Assembly (NCBI GenBank): GCA_913776045.1
Contig: CAJYOI010000009.1
Span: forward strand, 1-64,000
Origin: an uncultured Sphingomonas sp.
Lineage (GTDB): Bacteria > Pseudomonadota > Alphaproteobacteria > Sphingomonadales > Sphingomonadaceae
Reading direction: 5' to 3'
DNA length: 64,000 nt
This document shows positions 50,443-60,704 of the stretch, piece by piece. A program made the position numbers and the translations under genes. Position 1 is the stretch's first letter. Each line of letters begins with the position of its first letter. Below the pieces are notes generated by a model. That model ran no database searches, had not been told where the DNA came from, and saw nothing but the letters and a program-made list of their open reading frames with translations.

Positions 50443-51741
50443 ATGGCGCATGCTCCCCTCACCCGCCGCGCGATCCTGGCGCAGGCCTGGCCGATCATGC
50501 TGGGCCAGGCGACGGTGCCGCTGGTCGGGATCGTCGACACCGCCGTGATCGGGCGGACGGGCGATGCCGCCGCGCTGGCGGGCGTGGCGCTGGGCGGAAC
50601 GATCGTCAGTTTCCTGTTCTGGAGCTTCGGCTTCCTGCGGATGGGGATGACGGGGCTGACCGCACAGGCCAGCGGGCGCGGCGATGTGGAGGAAGTGTCG
50701 GGGTTGCTCGCGCGCGGGCTGGTGATCGGCGCGGGAATGGGCGCGCTGTTGATGGCGATGCAACTGGTCCTGATACCGGCCGCCTTCGCGCTGTTCGCCG
50801 GCGGCGCGGCGATCGATGCGGCCGGACGAGCCTATGTTTCGGCACGGTTCGTCGGTGCGCCGGCGGCGCTTGCGGTCTTCGCGATCAACGGCTGGTTGCT
50901 CGGGCTCGGCCGGACGCGGGCGGCGCTCGCGATGCAGGTGTGGATGAACGTCATCAACATCGCCGCCTGCGCGGTGCTGGTGTGGCATCTGGAACTTGGT
51001 GCACGCGGAGTCGGGCTGGGCACCGCCATCGCCGAATGGAGCGCGTTGCTCGCCGGGCTGATGATCGTAGCGCCGCAGTTGCGCGGGCTGGCGCGGTGCC
51101 GGGTGTTCGATCGCGCGGCAATCGTCCGACTGTTGGCGGTCAACGCCGACATCATGGTCCGCACCATCGCGTTGCTGACCTTGCTCGCCTGGTTCGCAAA
51201 TGCGGGCGCGCGGCTGGGCGCGGAGACATTGGCCGCGAACCAGATCCTGATGCAGGCAGTGGCGCTGGTCGCCTTCGTGCTCGACGGCTTCGCCTTCACT
51301 GCAGAGGCGCGGGTCGGCCATGCGATCGGCGCCGGCTCGCGCGCCGACATGCTCCGCGCGATCCGGCTGACGGGCGAGTTCTCGCTCGGCGCCGCGGTCC
51401 TGTTCGCCGCGATGATCGCGCTCGGCGGCGCGGCGGCGATCCCGGTAATGACGACCAACGCTGCTGTACAGGCGCAGGCACTGGCGCTGCTGCCCTTCGT
51501 CGTCGTCCTGCCGGTCATCGGCATGCCCGCCTGGCTGCTCGACGGCATCTTCATCGGCGCCACCGAAGGCCGGGCGCTGCGCAACGCCGCGATCCTGGCG
51601 ACCGCGCTGTACGTCGCCACCGATCTGCTCTTACGCGGGAACGGCGACATCGGCGTGTGGATCGCGCTGACGTTCAGCTACCTCTACCGGGCGATGACGC
51701 TGGGCGCGTATTTCCCGCGCCTGTTGCGACGCCTCGCCTAG
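50443..51741 (+). CDS. MATE family efflux transporter (DinF-like)
   Basis: A 432-residue, 12-helix protein. ILAQAWPIMLGQATVPLVGI at the start, DTAVIGRTGDAAALAGVALG, and the second-half counterpart ANQILMQAVALVAFVLDG are conserved in MATE proteins of the DinF subgroup. It exports cationic or toxic compounds using Na+ or H+. It starts 18 bp before argG on the same strand, but argG is likely to have its own ribosome site. Confidence 0.92.
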   Translation: MAHAPLTRRAILAQAWPIMLGQATVPLVGIVDTAVIGRTGDAAALAGVALGGTIVSFLFWSFGFLRMGMTGLTAQASGRGDVEEVSGLLARGLVIGAGMGALLMAMQLVLIPAAFALFAGGAAIDAAGRAYVSARFVGAPAALAVFAINGWLLGLGRTRAALAMQVWMNVINIAACAVLVWHLELGARGVGLGTAIAEWSALLAGLMIVAPQLRGLARCRVFDRAAIVRLLAVNADIMVRTIALLTLLAWFANAGARLGAETLAANQILMQAVALVAFVLDGFAFTAEARVGHAIGAGSRADMLRAIRLTGEFSLGAAVLFAAMIALGGAAAIPVMTTNAAVQAQALALLPFVVVLPVIGMPAWLLDGIFIGATEGRALRNAAILATALYVATDLLLRGNGDIGVWIALTFSYLYRAMTLGAYFPRLLRRLA

Positions 51742-51759
51742 GTCCCTAAAGGCGCGCGC

Positions 51760-52980
51760 ATGACCGACTCCTCCATCAAGCGCGTCGTGCTGGCCTATTC
51801 GGGCGGCCTCGACACCTCCGTCATCCTCAAGTGGCTGCAGACCGAGTATAATTGCGAGGTCGTCACCTTCACCGCCGACCTGGGCCAGGGCGAAGAGCTG
51901 GAGCCCGCGCGTCGCAAGGCCGAGATGGCGGGCGTGAAGGCCGAGCACATCTTCATTGACGACCTGCGCGAGGAATTCGTGAAGGACTATGTCTTCCCGA
52001 TGATGCGCGCCAATGCGCTCTACGAAGGGCTGTATCTGCTCGGCACCTCGATCGCGCGGCCGCTGATCGCCAAGCGCCAGATCGAGATCGCGAAACTCGT
52101 CAACGCCGACGCCGTCAGCCACGGCGCGACCGGGAAGGGCAACGACCAAGTCCGCTTCGAACTCGGCTATTACGCGCTGAACCCGGACATCAAGGTCATC
52201 GCGCCGTGGCGCGAATGGAACCTGACCAGCCGCACCAAGCTGATCGAATTTGCGGAAGCGCACCAGATCCCCGTCAGCAAGGACAAGCGCGGCGAGGCGC
52301 CCTTCTCGACCGACGCGAACCTGCTGCACACCTCGTCCGAGGGCAAGGTGCTGGAGGATCCGTGGGACGAGGTTCCCGACTATGTTTACTCGCGTACGGT
52401 CAATCCGGAGGACGCGCCCGACCAGCCGGAAACGATCACGATCGATTTCGAACGCGGCGACGGCGTCGCGCTGAACGGCCAGGCGATGAGCCCGGCGACG
52501 TTGCTCGCCGCACTCAACGACCTGGGTCGCAAGCACGGCATCGGCCGCCTCGACCTGGTCGAGAACCGCTTCGTCGGCATGAAGAGCCGCGGCATGTACG
52601 AGACGCCGGGCGGCACCATCTATGCCCTCGCCCACCGCGGCATCGAGCAGATCACGCTCGACCGGGGGGCTGCGCATCTGAAGGACGAACTGGCGCCGCG
52701 CTATGCCGAACTGGTCTACAACGGCTTCTGGTTCTCGCCGGAGCGCGAGATGCTGCAGGCCGCGGTCGATCACAGCCAGGAAAAGGTGTCGGGCACCGTC
52801 CGGCTGAAGCTCTACAAGGGCAACGTCATCGTGACGGGTCGCAAGTCGCCCAATTCGCTCTACAGCGAAAAGGTCGTGACGTTCGAGGACGATCAGGGCG
52901 CCTATGATCAGCGCGACGCCGCGGGCTTCATCAAACTCAACGCGCTACGCCTTCGCCTGCTGGGCCGGCGCGATCGTTGA
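51760..52980 (+). CDS. argG: Argininosuccinate synthase
   Basis: A 406-residue enzyme that joins citrulline and aspartate with [21 protein letters not shown] (about 9-26, the PP-loop), [16 protein letters not shown] and [10 protein letters not shown] are hallmark segments. Length is typical. It is the last housekeeping gene before the GT-C membrane protein array. Confidence 0.97.
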
Positions 52981-53011
52981 TCCGATGGTAACCATGCCCC
53001 GCTAGCCCGGC

Positions 53012-54457
53012 ATGATGAACACGGGCGAGCGGGACTGGTGGCAGACGCGGTGGTTCTTCGCCGCCGTCGTCCTGTTGGCGACACTGCCCTTGCTCTGGCC
53101 GGCGGTGCCCCCGCTGACCGACCTGCCCGGACATATCGGGCGGTACCGATTGATGCTGGATGGCGGCTCAGGGCCGCTGGCGCGCTGGTTCGTCTTTCAC
53201 TGGCGGGCGACCGGCAATCTCGGCGTCGATGTAATCATCGCTGTGCTCGGCCCGCTGATGGGTCTGGAGCCAGCGGTCAAGCTGGTCACGATCGCCATCC
53301 CAGCGCTGACCGTCGCCGGGCTGCTGACGCTGTCGCGCACCGTTTTCGGACGGGTCAGCCCATACGCGATCGCAGCCCTGCCGTTAGCCTACGGACTGCC
53401 GTTCGGCATGGGCTTCGTCAATTTCGCGCTGTCGATCGCGCTGGCGCTGTTCGCCCTTTCGCTCTGGCTGCGCATGGCCGGCAGCCGCTGGCGCGCCGCG
53501 GTGTTCGTGCCGGTCGCGCTGGCGATCTGGTTTTGCCATATCTTCGGCTGGGCCGTCCTGGGCCTTGCGATCTTTGCGGTCGAGCTCGCTAGGTCCCGCC
53601 ATCCGATCCGCGCGGCGATCGTCTGCTGGCCCCTCGCTGCGCCGCTGCCGCTCATGCTGGCGACCGCTGGCGGCGGCGGCGTGACGGGCGGATATAGCCT
53701 TGGCGGGAAACTGTTGCCGCTGCTGACCGTGGTGCGCGACCGATGGATGGCATGGGACGTCGCGGCCGTCGCGGTGATGCTCGGGTTAATCGGATACGGC
53801 CTCGCGCGTGGACACGTCGACCGGCGGCTGGGCGCCGCCGCGGTGGCGCTTACCCTCGCCCTGATCGCCATTCCGTCTTGGCTGCTCGGCTCCGCCTATG
53901 CCGATTCTCGGGTGGCGCCGATCGCGCTGATGATGGCGCTCGTCGCGCTACGTCCCGCGACGCGGCGGCAGGCGTCCGCCATCGCGCTGATCGCAATGCT
54001 CGTTTTCGCGATGCGGATCGCCGGGACGACCGCCAGCTACGCGATGGCGGCGGCGGAGCAGGAACGCGCGCTGGCGGCCCTCGACCATATCCCCGACGGC
54101 GCTCGCGTCGTCGCGCTGGTCCGGCCGGGGTGCGACGACTTCTGGAGCGTCGCCCGCTTCGATCACCTCGGCGGCCTGGTCACCGCGCGACGCCGGGCTT
54201 TCGTGAACGACCAGTTCCAGGGGAATGCTGCGGCCCTGCTCGACGTCCGCTATCCCGCCGCGCGGCCGTTCGAGCGCGATCCGTCGCAGTTTCTGGACTG
54301 CGACGCGGGGTCCCTGGCCCGTACGGTGTCGACCATTCCACGCAGCGCGTTCGATCGGGTCTGGGTATTGAACCTCGACACTCCGCCCCCCGCCGCCCTC
54401 CCCGGCGTGACACGCCTGTGGGTCGATGGCGGGCATGCGCTCTATCGGATCGACTGA
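53012..54457 (+). CDS. GT-C-like polytopic membrane protein, paralogue 1
   Basis: A 481-residue protein with about 11 helices and a soluble C-terminal domain of about 130 residues. The first periplasmic loop carries PPLTDLPGHIGRY. HWRATGNLGVDV, GFVNFALS, ICHIFGW-like WFCHIFGW and SAYADSRVAP follow. The C-terminal part holds PDGARVVALVRPGC and RRRAFVNDQFQ. The same set occurs in the proteins at 56125 and 57639. Family members of GT-C transferases carry an acidic catalytic residue in the first loop, and DLPGH is a candidate. No function is established. Confidence 0.72.
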   Translation: MMNTGERDWWQTRWFFAAVVLLATLPLLWPAVPPLTDLPGHIGRYRLMLDGGSGPLARWFVFHWRATGNLGVDVIIAVLGPLMGLEPAVKLVTIAIPALTVAGLLTLSRTVFGRVSPYAIAALPLAYGLPFGMGFVNFALSIALALFALSLWLRMAGSRWRAAVFVPVALAIWFCHIFGWAVLGLAIFAVELARSRHPIRAAIVCWPLAAPLPLMLATAGGGGVTGGYSLGGKLLPLLTVVRDRWMAWDVAAVAVMLGLIGYGLARGHVDRRLGAAAVALTLALIAIPSWLLGSAYADSRVAPIALMMALVALRPATRRQASAIALIAMLVFAMRIAGTTASYAMAAAEQERALAALDHIPDGARVVALVRPGCDDFWSVARFDHLGGLVTARRRAFVNDQFQGNAAALLDVRYPAARPFERDPSQFLDCDAGSLARTVSTIPRSAFDRVWVLNLDTPPPAALPGVTRLWVDGGHALYRID

Positions 54458-54493
54458 CGGGAAATTAACCATCGCAGCCCTAGCGTGGTGCCG

Positions 54494-56128
54494 ATGTCCG
54501 CCCGCCTGCGCCCGATCCTGCCTGTCCTTGCGCTGACGATCCTGCTCGGCATGGCGTGGGCGCTGGCCGACTGGGCCCGGCTGTCACGCCTAATGCTTCC
54601 CGACACCGACGATGCGATGCGGCTGCAGCAGGTTCGCGACTGGATTGACGGACAGGGATTCGGTGACGTCGCTCAGCACCGGCTGGCAGGCGGGCTGGCG
54701 ATGCACTGGTCGCGGATCGGCGATCTCGTCCCCGCCGCGATCATCCTGCTGCTCCGACCATTTGCCGGCACGACCGACGCAGAAGTCGCTGCGGTCGTGC
54801 TGTGGCCGCTTGCCCAATTCGCCGTCCTGCTCGCCCTCGTCCGAGACGTGACGCGACGCTTCGCCCCGGCAGCGGGAGGGACGGCGCTGGTGCTTATCGC
54901 GCTTGCCTATCCTGCATCCAGCCTGTTCCTGCCTGGGCGGATCGATCATCACGCGATGCAGCTGCTGTTGGTCGTCGTGCAGCTTCGCGCGGTGCTGGCG
55001 CGGCCCAGCTATGCGTCCGGCGCGATAGCCGGAGCGGCCGTCGCGGTCGGTGCGAGAATCGGCCTGGAGACCGTTCCGTTCGCGCTGGTCACCGGCGCGA
55101 TCATCGTCCTCGAGCGTCTGCGCGGCGATGGCGAGCGCCAGACGGGATTCGGCCTGACGCTCGCCGCCGGCCTGATCCTGCTTGCGCCCATCTCCGCGCA
55201 CGGCGGCACCTGCGACACGATCGAGCCGGTGATGCGCTATGCGGCCGCTGGCGGCCTGGCGCTCGCCGCGATCGGAAGTATCGACCGGTACAGACCGGCG
55301 TTGCTGTCGGGCTGCGGTGCGGCCCTCGTTCTCCTGAGCTGGCCGGCCGTCGCGCCCTGCCTGTCCGGCCCCTATGCCTCCGTCGATCCGCTCGTGACCC
55401 GGTTGTGGCTACGGCAGGTCGCCGAAGCGCAACCCCTGTTCGGCGCGCCGCTTGCTAGCGCGATCGGCTATGTCGGCTTGCTGAGCGCCGGCCTGATCGC
55501 GAGCGCGGTGCTTGCGCGACGCGACGGCGGTGGCTGGTGGCGGCTGCTTGCCTATCAGGTCGCAGCCCTCGCGATCACGCTGTTCCAGCTCCGCGGCGCC
55601 TATGTCGGGGCCGCGCTGGCAGTTGTGCCGATCGCCGTGTTGCTGACACAGGCACGGGCCGCGAAGGAAACCGCGGCGGTGCTAGGCCTGTGGATCGCCG
55701 GCGCCGGCCTCGCCTATCCACTCATTGCCGGTGGTCTTGCCCCCAAAGCGGCGATCGCCGCGCCATCAATCGATTGCGCGGGCGCGGCGATGATCGACCG
55801 GCTGAAGACGCTGCCGCCGGGCACAGTCCTGTCCGGCATCGATGCGGGAAGCTATATCCTAGCCGGCACGCCGCATTCCGTGATCGCCGCGCCCTATCAT
55901 CGCAACAATGCCGGCAATGCCGCGGCCTACCGCTTCTTTCTCGGGCCGCCGGCGCAGGCCGCCGCCATAGCGCGCCGCTGGCACGTTCGTTACATCGCGT
56001 TGTGCCCGGGCATGTTCGGCGACGTCCGGCCGCCCGCCGGATCGATCGCCGCCGGAAACGTCCCGCGCTGGCTGCGCCCGATCGACGGGTCGGCGGCACT
56101 CTTCCGGGTCGACGATCTCCCGCAATGA
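54494..56128 (+). CDS. STT3/AglB-like GT-C membrane protein
   Basis: A 544-residue protein with about 12 helices, ATG 54494 (GTG 54485 possible). The first loop has MLPDTDDAMRLQQVRDWIDG, matching the acidic motif of oligosaccharyltransferase-type GT-C enzymes, and PGRIDHHAMQLLLV further on is the second. The C-terminal soluble part has SGIDAGSYILAGTPHSVIA and PYHRNNAGNAAAYRFF. It lies between two copies of the other family and its stop overlaps the next ATG (ATGA), which argues for co-function. A lipid-linked sugar donor is likely. The acceptor is unknown. Confidence 0.78.
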   Translation: MSARLRPILPVLALTILLGMAWALADWARLSRLMLPDTDDAMRLQQVRDWIDGQGFGDVAQHRLAGGLAMHWSRIGDLVPAAIILLLRPFAGTTDAEVAAVVLWPLAQFAVLLALVRDVTRRFAPAAGGTALVLIALAYPASSLFLPGRIDHHAMQLLLVVVQLRAVLARPSYASGAIAGAAVAVGARIGLETVPFALVTGAIIVLERLRGDGERQTGFGLTLAAGLILLAPISAHGGTCDTIEPVMRYAAAGGLALAAIGSIDRYRPALLSGCGAALVLLSWPAVAPCLSGPYASVDPLVTRLWLRQVAEAQPLFGAPLASAIGYVGLLSAGLIASAVLARRDGGGWWRLLAYQVAALAITLFQLRGAYVGAALAVVPIAVLLTQARAAKETAAVLGLWIAGAGLAYPLIAGGLAPKAAIAAPSIDCAGAAMIDRLKTLPPGTVLSGIDAGSYILAGTPHSVIAAPYHRNNAGNAAAYRFFLGPPAQAAAIARRWHVRYIALCPGMFGDVRPPAGSIAAGNVPRWLRPIDGSAALFRVDDLPQ

Positions 56129-57594
56129 TAAGAAGCCGGGAAGCGCTATGGCTGGTGGCAGCGATGCTCCTCGTCGTGCTGCCGCTCGTCTGGCCGGCGA
56201 TCCCGCCGCTCAATGACCTGCCGGAACATATCGGCCGCTATCACATCGCTGCGACGATCGACCGTTCGCCGGAGTTGCAGCGCGCGTGGGCCTATCACTG
56301 GCAGCTGATCGGCAATCTGGGCGTGGACCTGCCGGTGATAGCCATTGCGCCGTGGATTGGCGTCGAACGCGCCACGAAACTCGTCGTGATGCTGATCCCC
56401 GCCGCCTTTGTCGCCGGACTGTGGACGATCGGGCACGTGCGCGATCGGCCGGTGCCTCCGCTCGCCGGCTTCGCCTTCGCGCTCGCCTATAGCCACGCCT
56501 TTTCGCTGGGGTTCGTCAACTTCGCCCTGTCGGTGTCTCTGTCGTTCTTCGCGCTGGCGGGATGGATCGCGCTCCACGACAGGCCGTTCATCCGCGTGCT
56601 CGTATTCGTGCCTGTGTCTTGGGCTCTCTGGATCGCGCACAGCTCCGGTTGGGGCATGTTCGGGCTGATGGCATGGGCGAGCGCGATGATGCTCGAGCGC
56701 GAGCGTGAGCTTGGCTGGGGGGCCTCCATCCGCAACGCCACGCTGGCCAGCTTGGCGCTGGCGACGCCCCTCCTCACCATGATCGGCAGCGACGGGCCGG
56801 CGATCGCGCCATTCTGGATCTGGCCGTCGAAGGCCAGCGCCATCGCATCTTTGGTCCGCGATCGATGGCAGTGGTTCGATGTCGCCAGCGCCTGCATCGT
56901 AGTGCTGCTGGTCCGGACCGCCCTGCGTCATCGCGACTGGCGTTGCGACGCGGTGATCGCCGCGCCCGGCGCTATCCTGCTGCTCGCCTTCGTCACCCTG
57001 CCCCATGGAGCGATCGGCGGTGCCTATGTCGATATGCGCGTCTTGGCACCGGCCTGCGCGCTGCTGCTCTGGTCCGTTCGGATCGAGTCGCTGCGAACCG
57101 CCCGGCGCCTCTTCGCCGCCGGGGCCGCCTTCCTCGCCATCCGTATGCTTGCGACGACCCTCAGCTATGCAAGCTTCGCGGCGGTTTGGGAGGAGACGCA
57201 GGCTGCGATCCCGGCCATGCCCCGCGGCGCGCGCGTGCTGAGCCTGGTCGCCGAACCCTGCACATCGACATGGCGTTCCGACCGGCTGGGCCATCTGGCC
57301 GGCCTCGCCATCACCCGCCGCGACGTGTTCGAAAACGGCGCCTGGGCGATCGCGGGTCAGCAGTCACTCCGCATCCGCGGCGACGCCGATCCGGTCTATC
57401 GCACCGACCCATCGCAGCTCGTCTATCCCGCGGGCTGCTTGCCCGACACGACCGATCGCAATCGCGCACTTGCCGCGTTCGATCGCCGCTATTTCACGCA
57501 CGTCTGGCTGATCGGTCTGCCGGGCCCGGTGCCGGCAGACCTGCGCCCGGTCTTTCGCAACGCGCGCTCGACGCTATACCGGGTCGTCCGCTGA
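56125..57594 (+). CDS. GT-C-like polytopic membrane protein, paralogue 2
   Basis: A 489-residue protein, ATG 56125 overlapping the previous stop. It repeats the family layout: PPLNDLPEHIGRY in the first loop, HWQLIGNLGVDLPV, SLGFVNFALSVSLSFF, IAHSSGWGMFGL and GGAYVDMRVLAP. The soluble end carries PRGARVLSLVAEPC and TRRDVFENGAW. It is more diverged than paralogues 1 and 3 in its last 100 residues, which may set its acceptor. Confidence 0.72.
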   Translation: MIRSREALWLVAAMLLVVLPLVWPAIPPLNDLPEHIGRYHIAATIDRSPELQRAWAYHWQLIGNLGVDLPVIAIAPWIGVERATKLVVMLIPAAFVAGLWTIGHVRDRPVPPLAGFAFALAYSHAFSLGFVNFALSVSLSFFALAGWIALHDRPFIRVLVFVPVSWALWIAHSSGWGMFGLMAWASAMMLERERELGWGASIRNATLASLALATPLLTMIGSDGPAIAPFWIWPSKASAIASLVRDRWQWFDVASACIVVLLVRTALRHRDWRCDAVIAAPGAILLLAFVTLPHGAIGGAYVDMRVLAPACALLLWSVRIESLRTARRLFAAGAAFLAIRMLATTLSYASFAAVWEETQAAIPAMPRGARVLSLVAEPCTSTWRSDRLGHLAGLAITRRDVFENGAWAIAGQQSLRIRGDADPVYRTDPSQLVYPAGCLPDTTDRNRALAAFDRRYFTHVWLIGLPGPVPADLRPVFRNARSTLYRVVR

Positions 57595-57638
57595 TCGGCC
57601 TTGCCGCGGGGGCGCCCCCACCCTTATGGACGATTGCG

Positions 57639-59285
57639 ATGCAGACGCCGGCCGATACCCCGCTTCGTTGGTGGCAGACCCGCGCGTTCGTCGTCTTCGT
57701 CGCGCTGGCGACGGCCATCCCGCTGCTGATCCCCGACATCGCCCCGCTGGTCGATCTGCCGGGGCATATGGCGCGGTACCGCGTCCAGTTGGCGCATGAC
57801 AGCGCGGCGTGGCTGAACGACTGGTATGATTTTCGCTGGCAGCTGATCGGCAACCTGGGGCTCGACCTGCTGATCGAGCCGCTGGCGCCGATCTTCGGCC
57901 TCGAACTGGCGGTCAAGCTGATCGTGCTGACGATCCCGCCGCTGACCGCGGTCGGGTTCCTGTGGATCGCCCGCGAAGTCCATGGCCGCATCCCGGCGAC
58001 CGCGCTGTTCGCGCTGCCGCTGGCATATAGCTATCCCTTCCACTTCGGCTTCGTGAACTTCGCGCTGTCTATGGCACTGGCGCTGAACGCCTTCGCCTTG
58101 TGGCTGCGGCTGGCGCGGCTGGGCAGGTTTCGGCTGCGGGCGATCCTGTTCGTGCCGATCGGGCTTATCCTGTGGGTGTGCCACACGTTCGGTTGGGGCG
58201 TGCTGGGCGTGCTCGCCTTCTCCGCCGAGCTGATCCGCGAGCATGACAAGGCGACCGAGCGCGGCGTCGTCGCGCGGTGGGTGCGGCCGTGGTTCATGGC
58301 GGGCATCCACTGCCTGCCGCTCGCGCCGCCTGCGCTGCTGATGCTGATGTGGCGCAGCGGCGGGCATGTGACGGGGCAGACCGGCGACTGGTTCAACTGG
58401 CGCCAGAAGGTCAATTGGGTGACGATGGTGCTGCGCGACCGGTGGATGCCGTTCGACATCGCTTCGGTCGCCGTGCTGCTGTTCGTGCTGCTGAAGTCGG
58501 TGCGCGACCCGACCGTCCAGTACTCGCGCAACCTGACGCTGTCGGCGCTGTTTCTGCTGGCGGTCTTCATCCTGCTGCCGCGGATCGTATTCGGATCGGC
58601 CTATGCCGACATGCGGCTGGCGCCGTTCATGATCGGCATCGCGCTGATCGCCATCCGCCCGCGGCCGGGCACGACGGCGCGCGGGGTCGGCATGCTGGCA
58701 CTGGCGGGCCTCGCCTTCTTCGTCGCCCGCACCGCGGCGACGACGGTCAGCTTCTGGCATTACGACAAGAGTTACGACCGCGAACTGGCCGCACTGGAGA
58801 AGCTGCCGAAGGGCGCGCGGCTGGTCAGCTTCGTCGGCGAGACCTGCTATAACCAGTGGACGATGACGCGGTTGCAGCATCTGCCCGGCATGGCGATGGT
58901 GCGGCGCCTGGCCTTCACCAACGACCAATGGTCGATGCCCGGCGCGCAGCTGCTGACGGTCAAATATCAGGCCGGCCGGCCGTTCAACCACGACCCGTCG
59001 GAGATCGTGACGACCACCCAGTGCCCGACCGAATGGTGGCGCCCGGTGTCGATCAGCTTGGTGCGTTTCCCGCGCGACGCGTTCGATTACGTCTGGCTGA
59101 TCAGCCCGCCCAATTACGACAAACGGCTGGAGCAGGGTCTGGTCCCGATCTGGCGCGACGGGACAAGCGCGCTGTTCCGGGTCGACCACAATGTGCCCCC
59201 GGCCGAACTGTCGATCGACGATTGGGGGCCCTACCGCGAGATCCTGCTCAAGCGCCGCGCGGCGCGGCTCAAGCGGTCTTCCTGA
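57639..59285 (+). CDS. GT-C-like polytopic membrane protein, paralogue 3
   Basis: A 548-residue protein, ATG 57639. Same family: APLVDLPGHMARY, RWQLIGNLGLDLLIEPLAP, GFVNFALSMALAL, WVCHTFGWGVLG, SAYADMRLAP, PKGARLVSFVGETC, RRLAFTNDQWS. A longer C-terminal end includes NVPPAELSIDDWGPYREILL and a basic tail. The last 17 bp overlap the convergent FemAB-like gene. It closes the four-gene array. Confidence 0.74.
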   Translation: MQTPADTPLRWWQTRAFVVFVALATAIPLLIPDIAPLVDLPGHMARYRVQLAHDSAAWLNDWYDFRWQLIGNLGLDLLIEPLAPIFGLELAVKLIVLTIPPLTAVGFLWIAREVHGRIPATALFALPLAYSYPFHFGFVNFALSMALALNAFALWLRLARLGRFRLRAILFVPIGLILWVCHTFGWGVLGVLAFSAELIREHDKATERGVVARWVRPWFMAGIHCLPLAPPALLMLMWRSGGHVTGQTGDWFNWRQKVNWVTMVLRDRWMPFDIASVAVLLFVLLKSVRDPTVQYSRNLTLSALFLLAVFILLPRIVFGSAYADMRLAPFMIGIALIAIRPRPGTTARGVGMLALAGLAFFVARTAATTVSFWHYDKSYDRELAALEKLPKGARLVSFVGETCYNQWTMTRLQHLPGMAMVRRLAFTNDQWSMPGAQLLTVKYQAGRPFNHDPSEIVTTTQCPTEWWRPVSISLVRFPRDAFDYVWLISPPNYDKRLEQGLVPIWRDGTSALFRVDHNVPPAELSIDDWGPYREILLKRRAARLKRSS

Positions 59286-60408
59286 ACGGGGTCATCTCGC
59301 CGAGAAACGCCTGTTCCTCCTCGACCGCCAGCCGCTCGCGCTCCAGGAAATCGGCGACCGCACGGCGGAAGTTCGGGTCCGGCAGGTAATGCGCCGACCA
59401 GGTCGGGACGGGCGTATAGCCGCGCGCCAGCTTGTGCTCGCCCTGCGCCCCGGCCTCGACCGTCTTGAGGCCCCGAGCAATGGCGGCGTCGATCGCCTGG
59501 TAGTAGCAGAGCTCGAAGTGAAGGAAGGGCACGTCCTCCACGCAGCCCCAATAGCGGCCGTAGAGCGTGTCCGCGCCGATCAGGTTGAGCGCCCCGGCGA
59601 TCGGGCGTCCGTCGCGCTCGGCGAGGATCAGCAGGCACTGGTCCGCCATCCGCTCGCCCAGCAGCGAGAAGAAGGCGCGGGTCAGGTACGGCGTCCCCCA
59701 TTTGCGGCTGCCGGTGTCCTGGTAGAAAACCCAGAAGGCGTCCCAATGCGCCTCGGTAATCTCGGCGCCGGTCAGGTGGCGGATGGTCAGCCCCTCGATG
59801 GCGCCTGTGCGTTCCTTGCGGATCGCCTTGCGCTTGCGGCTGGCGAGGTCGGTCAGGAAATCGTCGAAGCTGCCATAGCCGCGGTTCGCCCAGTGGAACT
59901 GCGTGCCTTCGCGGATCAGCCAACCGGCGGCCTCGAACAACGGCAGCTGATCGGGGCTGACGAAGGTCGCGTGAGCGGAGGACAGTTGGTGCTGATCGAC
60001 CACCGCCTCCACCGCCGCGATCAGCGCGGGCGCGGATGCGGCGTCGCGCATCAGCAGCCGCGGCCCCGGCACCGGCGAAAAGGGCACCGCGACCTGGAGC
60101 TTGGGGTAATAGCGACCCCCGGCCCGCTCCCACGCATCGGCCCAGGCATGGTCGAAGACATATTCGCCCTGGCTGTGGCTCTTGGCATAGGCCGGCGCGA
60201 CGCCCGCGATCTGCCCGTCGGCGCCATCGATGACGACCGGCACCGGCTGCCACCCGGCGCGCGCGGTGGCGGAGCCGGACTCCTCCAGGATCGACAGGAA
60301 GGCGTGGCTGACGAACGGATTACCGGCACCGGCGCAGGCGTCCCACTGGTCGGCGGGAATGGCGCGGACGCCATCGGCGATGCGGGCGGTGACAGGAGTG
60401 GAGCTCAC
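59269..60408 (-). CDS. FemAB/GNAT-like acyltransferase (peptidogalycan family)
   Basis: A 379-residue protein with two GNAT-like folds. GEYVFDHAWADAWERAGGRY and YYPKLQVAVPFSPVPGPRLL (about 80-120) are typical of the DUF482/peptidogalycan group, and LASRKRKAIRKER plus HFELCYYQAIDAAI complete it. The group is thought to transfer acyl or aminoacyl groups. It converges on and overlaps paralogue 3 by 17 bp. Confidence 0.85.
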   Translation of the reverse strand: MSSTPVTARIADGVRAIPADQWDACAGAGNPFVSHAFLSILEESGSATARAGWQPVPVVIDGADGQIAGVAPAYAKSHSQGEYVFDHAWADAWERAGGRYYPKLQVAVPFSPVPGPRLLMRDAASAPALIAAVEAVVDQHQLSSAHATFVSPDQLPLFEAAGWLIREGTQFHWANRGYGSFDDFLTDLASRKRKAIRKERTGAIEGLTIRHLTGAEITEAHWDAFWVFYQDTGSRKWGTPYLTRAFFSLLGERMADQCLLILAERDGRPIAGALNLIGADTLYGRYWGCVEDVPFLHFELCYYQAIDAAIARGLKTVEAGAQGEHKLARGYTPVPTWSAHYLPDPNFRRAVADFLERERLAVEEEQAFLGEMTPFRKTA

Positions 60409-60507
60409 GCTGGCGTATCTAGGGAGCCGATCGGCCCGCGGGAATGGGGGCGAAGGTCACGAAGTTCACACCAAGAGCGGGTTTTTCCGCGCTGCCCGCC
60501 CCCGTAC

Positions 60508-60583
60508 CGTGCTCCGGCGCAGGCCGGAGCGGTGGCATGCGCGAGGCTTCGACCGCCAACGCTCCGGCCTACGCCGGAGCACG
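60508..60583. repeat. Palindromic intergenic repeat, family 3
   Basis: CGTGCTCCGGCGCAGGCCGG at the left and an inverted copy CCGGCCTACGCCGGAGCACG at the right, 76 bp overall. It sits in the 296-bp gap between the FemAB-like start and the small membrane gene. Nothing else recognisable is in that gap. Confidence 0.7.
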
Positions 60584-60704
60584 ATCCTACTTACCCGTTG
60601 GGGTCTTGGATTAATTCAGCTGTCAAAGAGAGTCGGCGTGTCAGCCGCGGATTACCCAGCAGATGTTTTCCAACATTGCTAGGCGCTCTGCCTTAAACGC
60701 ACCG

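Follow-up and report, generated by a model that had tools for sequence, protein, structure and literature searches.

A variable cassette beside a genus-core, putative GT-C membrane glycosyltransferase in Sphingomonas

We analysed a 64,000-nucleotide stretch of DNA from an uncultured Sphingomonas sp. (contig CAJYOI010000009.1, positions 1 to 64,000; hereafter the window), which carries four adjacent genes for predicted membrane proteins on the forward (+) strand. Copy 1 (53012..54457, 481 residues), copy 2 (56125..57594, 489 residues) and copy 3 (57639..59285, 548 residues) are paralogues of a single family. Between copies 1 and 2 lies the gene for an STT3/AglB-like protein (P0002; 54494..56128), which has 544 residues when read from its ATG, or 547 from a GTG at 54485. 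Copy 1, the STT3-like gene and copy 2 form a variable cassette, in which copy 2 occupies the slot that immediately precedes copy 3. The conserved left border is argG (51760..52980, + strand), presumably encoding argininosuccinate synthase, and the right border is a convergent FemAB-like gene (59269..60408, − strand; Pfam PF04339, expectation value (E) 3.2e-160). The intergenic distances are 31 bp between argG and copy 1, 36 bp between copy 1 and the STT3-like gene and 44 bp between copies 2 and 3, while the stop of the STT3-like gene is joined to the start of copy 2 by an ATGA overlap (−4 bp); from this spacing we infer that the four genes may form a single operon. A consensus promoter scan of 51600-60600 found no match and was uninformative, because shuffled sequence averages just 0.9 matches. 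No tRNA or tmRNA was found by ARAGORN, and no Rfam family reached its gathering score, across the whole window (1-64000). The four open reading frames, their coordinates and the overlap agree with the initial annotation of this DNA, and the shared motifs that it listed are present in all three copies, except that the first-loop motif of copy 3 is APLVDLPGHMARY and not PPL.

Copy 1 is 36% identical to copy 2 and 44% to copy 3, and copies 2 and 3 share 36% identity. Searching the whole genome of origin with copy 3 recovered three family members, all at this locus, with copy 1 (E 2.6e-103) and copy 2 (E 2.9e-76) far beyond chance. The acidic first-loop residue claimed earlier was confirmed: Asp39 (copy 3 numbering; codon at 57753..57755, + strand), directly after the first predicted membrane segment (residues 16-34), is invariant in all 43 members of an alignment from which one sequence (L197) was excluded for in-frame stops. 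As in GT-C enzymes, this residue would be the catalytic base. The AlphaFold2 model of copy 3 (predicted local distance difference test 93.5, predicted template modelling score 0.93) matched GT-C structures, including STT3, PglB and AglB, when the top matched chains were given a second look with VIA-align. Copy 3 has the same fold as the GT-CA structures of Pmt4, STT3/PglB/AglB, DPY19, ArnT, AftD and EmbB, and these have the acidic first-loop residue in common with the copies; identity in the structural alignments is 6-12%. The role of this residue in known GT-CA enzymes is taken from general background and from PMC11127046. The GT-C membrane core proposed in the initial annotation is thus borne out for copy 3 by the model and its structural matches, sequence-only routes being weak, and copies 1 and 2 would adopt the same fold by homology. 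Copies 1-3 are probably membrane glycosyltransferases of the GT-C (GT-CA) type, from a family that is new in sequence and missing from both Pfam and NCBIfam. None of 65 copy-family members matched a glycosyltransferase family (best chance match E 0.026), and a PDB profile search of the family gave chance matches only. We found no account of the family or the locus in the literature, in a search that left subscription journals and preprints aside.

The DTDD and GRIDHH motifs of P0002 are, we assume, those of STT3/AglB proteins (PF02516, GT66). Among 48 sequences of the STT3-like family, D37, D39, R43, W72-S73-R74, R149 and D151 are kept and H152/H153 are nearly invariant. In its C-terminal stretch, the profile of this family matches a domain of A. 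fulgidus AglB (3vgp, E 0.0021), and the profile is collinear with a PMT_2 set, with the acidic pair aligned (E 0.00022, probability 45%; GT39-like set, E 0.083). In contrast with STT3/AglB, P0002 has no PF02516 match, nor does its relative on contig C1 of the same genome; 5 of the 48 members match weakly (E up to 1, best E 0.0033). The WWDYG motif is also absent, the aligned family stretch being a-p-l-d-l-G-a-y, in which only D and G are kept (SGIDAGSYIL in P0002). From these comparisons, P0002 is probably a remote STT3/AglB-type relative. The locus might then serve protein glycosylation, with the STT3-like protein as an oligosaccharyltransferase and copies 1-3 extending a lipid-linked glycan or modifying the glycoprotein, as in ALG/OST pathways. 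This would account for the AglB-like C-terminal domain and for the presence of STT3, PglB and AglB among the fold matches of copy 3, but we consider it improbable, given that WWDYG is not kept and that the neighbours in relatives, within the stretches examined, are of GT2/GtrA type, whose products are single-sugar lipid phosphates.

The STT3-like protein had a match in 61/61 genus genomes. Within its own genome there were two matches, this locus and contig C1, where the second gene (L115:9010-13192) adjoins GtrA, methyltransferase and GT2 genes; that group is likely to be a lipid-phosphate sugar pathway. A further relative, in a public plasmid record (NZ_CP155751.1:198865-200502), is annotated ‘AcrB/AcrD/AcrF family protein’, an apparent misnomer.

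Copy 3 was matched in 60 of the 61 genus genomes, its own included, and in all 55 of good quality. We compared 80 named loci, the 80 out of 125 with the highest copy-3 identity and thus close relatives. The FemAB-like gene lies downstream of copy 3 in 78/80 and argG upstream in 56/80, the other 24 having no argG within the stretch examined; argG is also annotated next to copy 3 in a record of S. parapaucimobilis. It is a border only, outside the proposed glycosylation function. The number of copies is one at 53 loci, two at 24 and three at 3, and a linked STT3-like gene, sometimes partial, is present at 62/80. In an even sample of the genus, 44/60 genomes have a linked STT3-like gene (these genes were typed only where near copy 3) and 16/60 a linked paralogue, while 20/38 paralogue hits are unlinked, a few of them on short contigs that hide linkage; these counts omit three rows that are second pieces of listed genes (G028, G026 and G007). 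The cassette may be empty, hold the STT3-like gene alone or together with one or two paralogues, or contain GT2, GtrA, oxidoreductase, methyltransferase or GT87 genes. Counting reading frames from 110 residues upward, GT2 genes occur upstream of copy 3 at 12 or more named loci, FAD oxidoreductase genes at 8 or more, methyltransferase genes at 7 or more and GtrA genes at 3 or more, and Pfam confirmed one of each. Among the loci examined, the order copy 1-STT3-copy 2-copy 3 was seen only in the window and in Sphingomonas sp. Leaf33 (L032); L034, L035 and G030 have three copies arranged otherwise. The fixed array described earlier was therefore not borne out by these counts, and the scattering of paralogues that would speak against it is half borne out, with 20 of the 38 hits unlinked. 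The four-gene ‘array’ is a single configuration of a locus that varies, next to a putative transferase that is core to the genus.

A GT87 (PF09594) gene can occupy the same place: S. parapaucimobilis has one between argG and copy 3, and G010 has one immediately before copy 3. The likeness of the GT87 profile to the copy family is only E 0.022 at a probability of 2%. In S. parapaucimobilis YK209 the argG-GT87-copy 3-GNAT block (L232; NZ_CP155751.1:279727-297271) is on a 425-kb replicon labelled as a plasmid, which also bears housekeeping-type genes such as tldD.

Relatives of the locus were found in Sphingomonas, which supports the earlier view of it as a sphingomonad locus, and the nearest named one is Leaf33. 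Copy 3 is 94% identical between the two, compared with 69% for copy 1, which pairs only with the Leaf33 copy in the tree. Identity drops where argG ends and is regained where copy 3 begins. Non-synonymous divergence (dN) is 0.16-0.22 in the cassette and 0.03-0.04 in argG, copy 3, femAB and metC, and synonymous divergence (dS) is 0.77-0.91 and 0.40-0.48, respectively; dS outside the cassette is not uniformly low (mate 0.58; cfa 0.69 over 253 codons, partial). The mscS row was dropped, since a dN of 1.74 for sequences 87% identical is an artefact of alignment register. It could be argued that copies 1 and 2 are degenerating duplicates under relaxed constraint, with no function of their own, as their dN/dS is high, at 0.20-0.29 against 0.06-0.09 in argG, copy 3, femAB and metC and 0.13 in mate, and the slot paralogue of one locus lacks the loop His. 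These dN/dS values are nevertheless well under 1, the frames are open and all 20 tabulated conserved positions are retained in copies 1 and 2, which makes degeneration very unlikely. The His-less slot paralogue (L098:6521-7966), which reads DLPAALVRY and is missing part of the C-terminal domain, is itself probably degenerate.

Variation in the slot extends to close relatives. The 27 loci that carry a paralogue in the slot give 351 pairs, and in 44 of these the two copies 3 are at least 80% identical; among those 44, the slot paralogues are less than 55% identical in 24 and at least 75% in 16. For the STT3-like gene at 57 loci the corresponding figures are 65 of 1596 pairs, 19 and 29, the pairs being non-independent in both counts. 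In L048 and L056, for example, copy 3 is 97% identical and the slot gene 41%. Among close relatives of S. faeni (L109), L110 and L111 carry a methyltransferase-GT2-STT3-like stretch of about 3.9 kb that seven others lack at that position. BLASTN comparisons (L048/L056, L055/L056 and L063/L084) had raised the possibility of chimeric slot genes, with a constant 5' third and the rest swapped. This was rejected because residue-binned identity shows only family-wide N-terminal conservation (N-part mean 52% and C-part 36% in 24 swapped pairs; 48% and 38% in 187 background pairs), and differences span the whole gene.

In the tree, the orthologues of copy 3 fall into a single clade (42 rows, 100/100) and the paralogues are spread over several old ones, subject to caution over long branches. 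Strain exchange and differential loss of old duplicates are both possible sources of the variability. Birth and death of old tandem duplicates, with each lineage keeping a different one of several ancestral paralogues, would require neither exchange nor selection for surface diversity. Several of the old paralogue clades are well supported, L034 has paralogues from two different clades next to each other, like copies 1 and 2 in the window, many paralogues are unlinked, and three unlinked rows have in-frame TAG stops, all of which fit such a history. On the other hand, copies 3 of 94-97% identity beside slot genes of 41-42% (L048/L056 and L055/L056) would need an ancestor that held both until very recently, and cassette dS is raised along with dN, though dS of mate and cfa also exceeds that of argG and copy 3. 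We regard birth and death alone as a serious but somewhat doubtful explanation. The TAG-bearing paralogues, in G024 (C1:311850-313460, the sequence L197; two stops), G058 (C2:320028-321638; one) and G018 (C1:1639123-1639503, a short fragment; two), are probably pseudogenes.

Beyond the genus, the gene surroundings of 6 of 16 class hits and of all 13 new phylum hits were examined, with six GtrB/GtrA queries taken from Sphingomonas and Stakelama. Of these 19 extra-genus loci (stretches of 8.8-16 kb), 13 have a gene like GtrB or GtrA, mostly the synthase, compared with none of 20 control stretches of 14 kb chosen at round coordinates in 12 of the same genomes (Fisher p 3e-6, for loci that are not independent and include several of the same families). 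Within the genus, unlinked paralogues (15 of 20 rows plus one from G583) had such a neighbour at 4 of 16 loci. With Pfam, L185 and L192 were confirmed to carry GT2 domains, L116 a GT2-GtrA fusion and L194 an EamA-type small transporter. The genome of origin has three GtrA-type genes on other contigs, one of them on C1, where its neighbours are a GT2 gene and the second STT3-like gene, and another on C52 within a GT2-GtrA fusion. The tie to lipid-phosphate sugars that the initial annotation drew is thereby strengthened, and the linkage is consistent with polyprenyl-phosphate sugars as the donors. At L195, which comes from a different genus of the same bacterial family, the gene after argG is an 867-residue frame of the same strand (L195:6245-8845, − strand), in which a PAP2_3 domain (residues 131-338) precedes a copy-family domain; methyltransferase, GT2, GtrA-like and STT3-like genes come next. 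PAP2 proteins act on lipid phosphates, and the frame therefore fits lipid-linked sugar chemistry; it is possibly a gene fusion that ties the copy family to lipid-phosphate chemistry.

On the basis of the family, the copy 3 fold, the conserved residues, the gene linkage in relatives and the variability, all computed in silico, the explanation that we favour, and think likely, is that these proteins are periplasmic GT-C transferases that decorate an envelope glycan in a partly strain-variable manner. In the cytoplasm, a GtrB-like GT2 enzyme would load a sugar onto polyprenyl phosphate, and a flippase of the GtrA kind would turn the charged lipid to the periplasm, with the genes for both on other contigs in the window's genome, C1 and C52 being candidates. 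Each GT-C protein would then activate its acceptor through the first-loop Asp (Asp39 in copy 3) and pass the sugar to a glycan or glycolipid of the envelope. Copy 3 would perform a step common to the genus, and the cassette genes would supply additional, strain-variable transferases that modify the final sugar of the surface; three related transferases with different acceptor specificity are plausible. As to the acceptor, a glycolipid such as a glycosphingolipid might be modified in an ArnT-like manner instead of a polysaccharide. This choice within the favoured explanation seems unlikely, as the locus holds no gene recognised as specific to sphingolipids and family members also occur in other alphaproteobacterial families and in at least two genomes outside the class.

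Several observations weigh against envelope decoration by these proteins. Copies 1-3 reach no Pfam or NCBIfam cut-off, and hhalign comparisons of the copy family with STT3-like, GT39-like, PMT_2 and GT87 sets were weak, at single-pair E 0.0006 to 0.022 (probability 2-29%) and E 0.19 for the GT39-like set, with a MATE negative control at E 0.84. GT-C folds without transferase activity exist, PIG-U being one. The window's own cassette has no GtrB or GtrA gene, and within the stretches examined no such neighbour was seen at 6 of the 19 remote and 12 of the 16 unlinked in-genus loci. At 15/80 named loci copy 3 has neither an STT3-like gene nor a paralogue in view, so these partners are dispensable. 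The family is also patchy, with no match in 10 of 12 genomes of other genera in the same family; at most three candidates were scored per genome, which makes the cross-family counts lower bounds.

Linked genes for a lipid-phosphate synthase, a flippase and a GT-C protein characterize the three-component GtrA/GtrB/Gtr(type) and GT136 pentofuranose systems, as described in PMC11127046, and relatives of the copies show the same linkage. The window's locus differs in lacking the synthase and flippase, in having several GT-C genes together and in that a genus-core GT-C gene borders the variable part. By analogy with the gtr operons of Salmonella, horizontally acquired according to PMC3688519, the variable glycosyltransferase genes may alter a surface glycan; here the slot is chromosomal, between argG and the genus-core GT-C gene. 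We tentatively suggest, as a possibility short of likely, a serotype-switch-like slot beside a genus-core GT-C gene that is fixed near argG, in which close strains swap complete genes for GT-C, STT3-like and lipid-sugar synthase proteins, giving strain-specific surface glycans. These results offer a fold and a likely role for a protein that is present in nearly every sampled genome of the genus and is called ‘hypothetical protein’ in one annotated record. To our knowledge, sphingomonads lack classical lipopolysaccharide, which bears on what such transferases would decorate. The analysis names a compact locus for the study of surface-sugar diversity in these bacteria.
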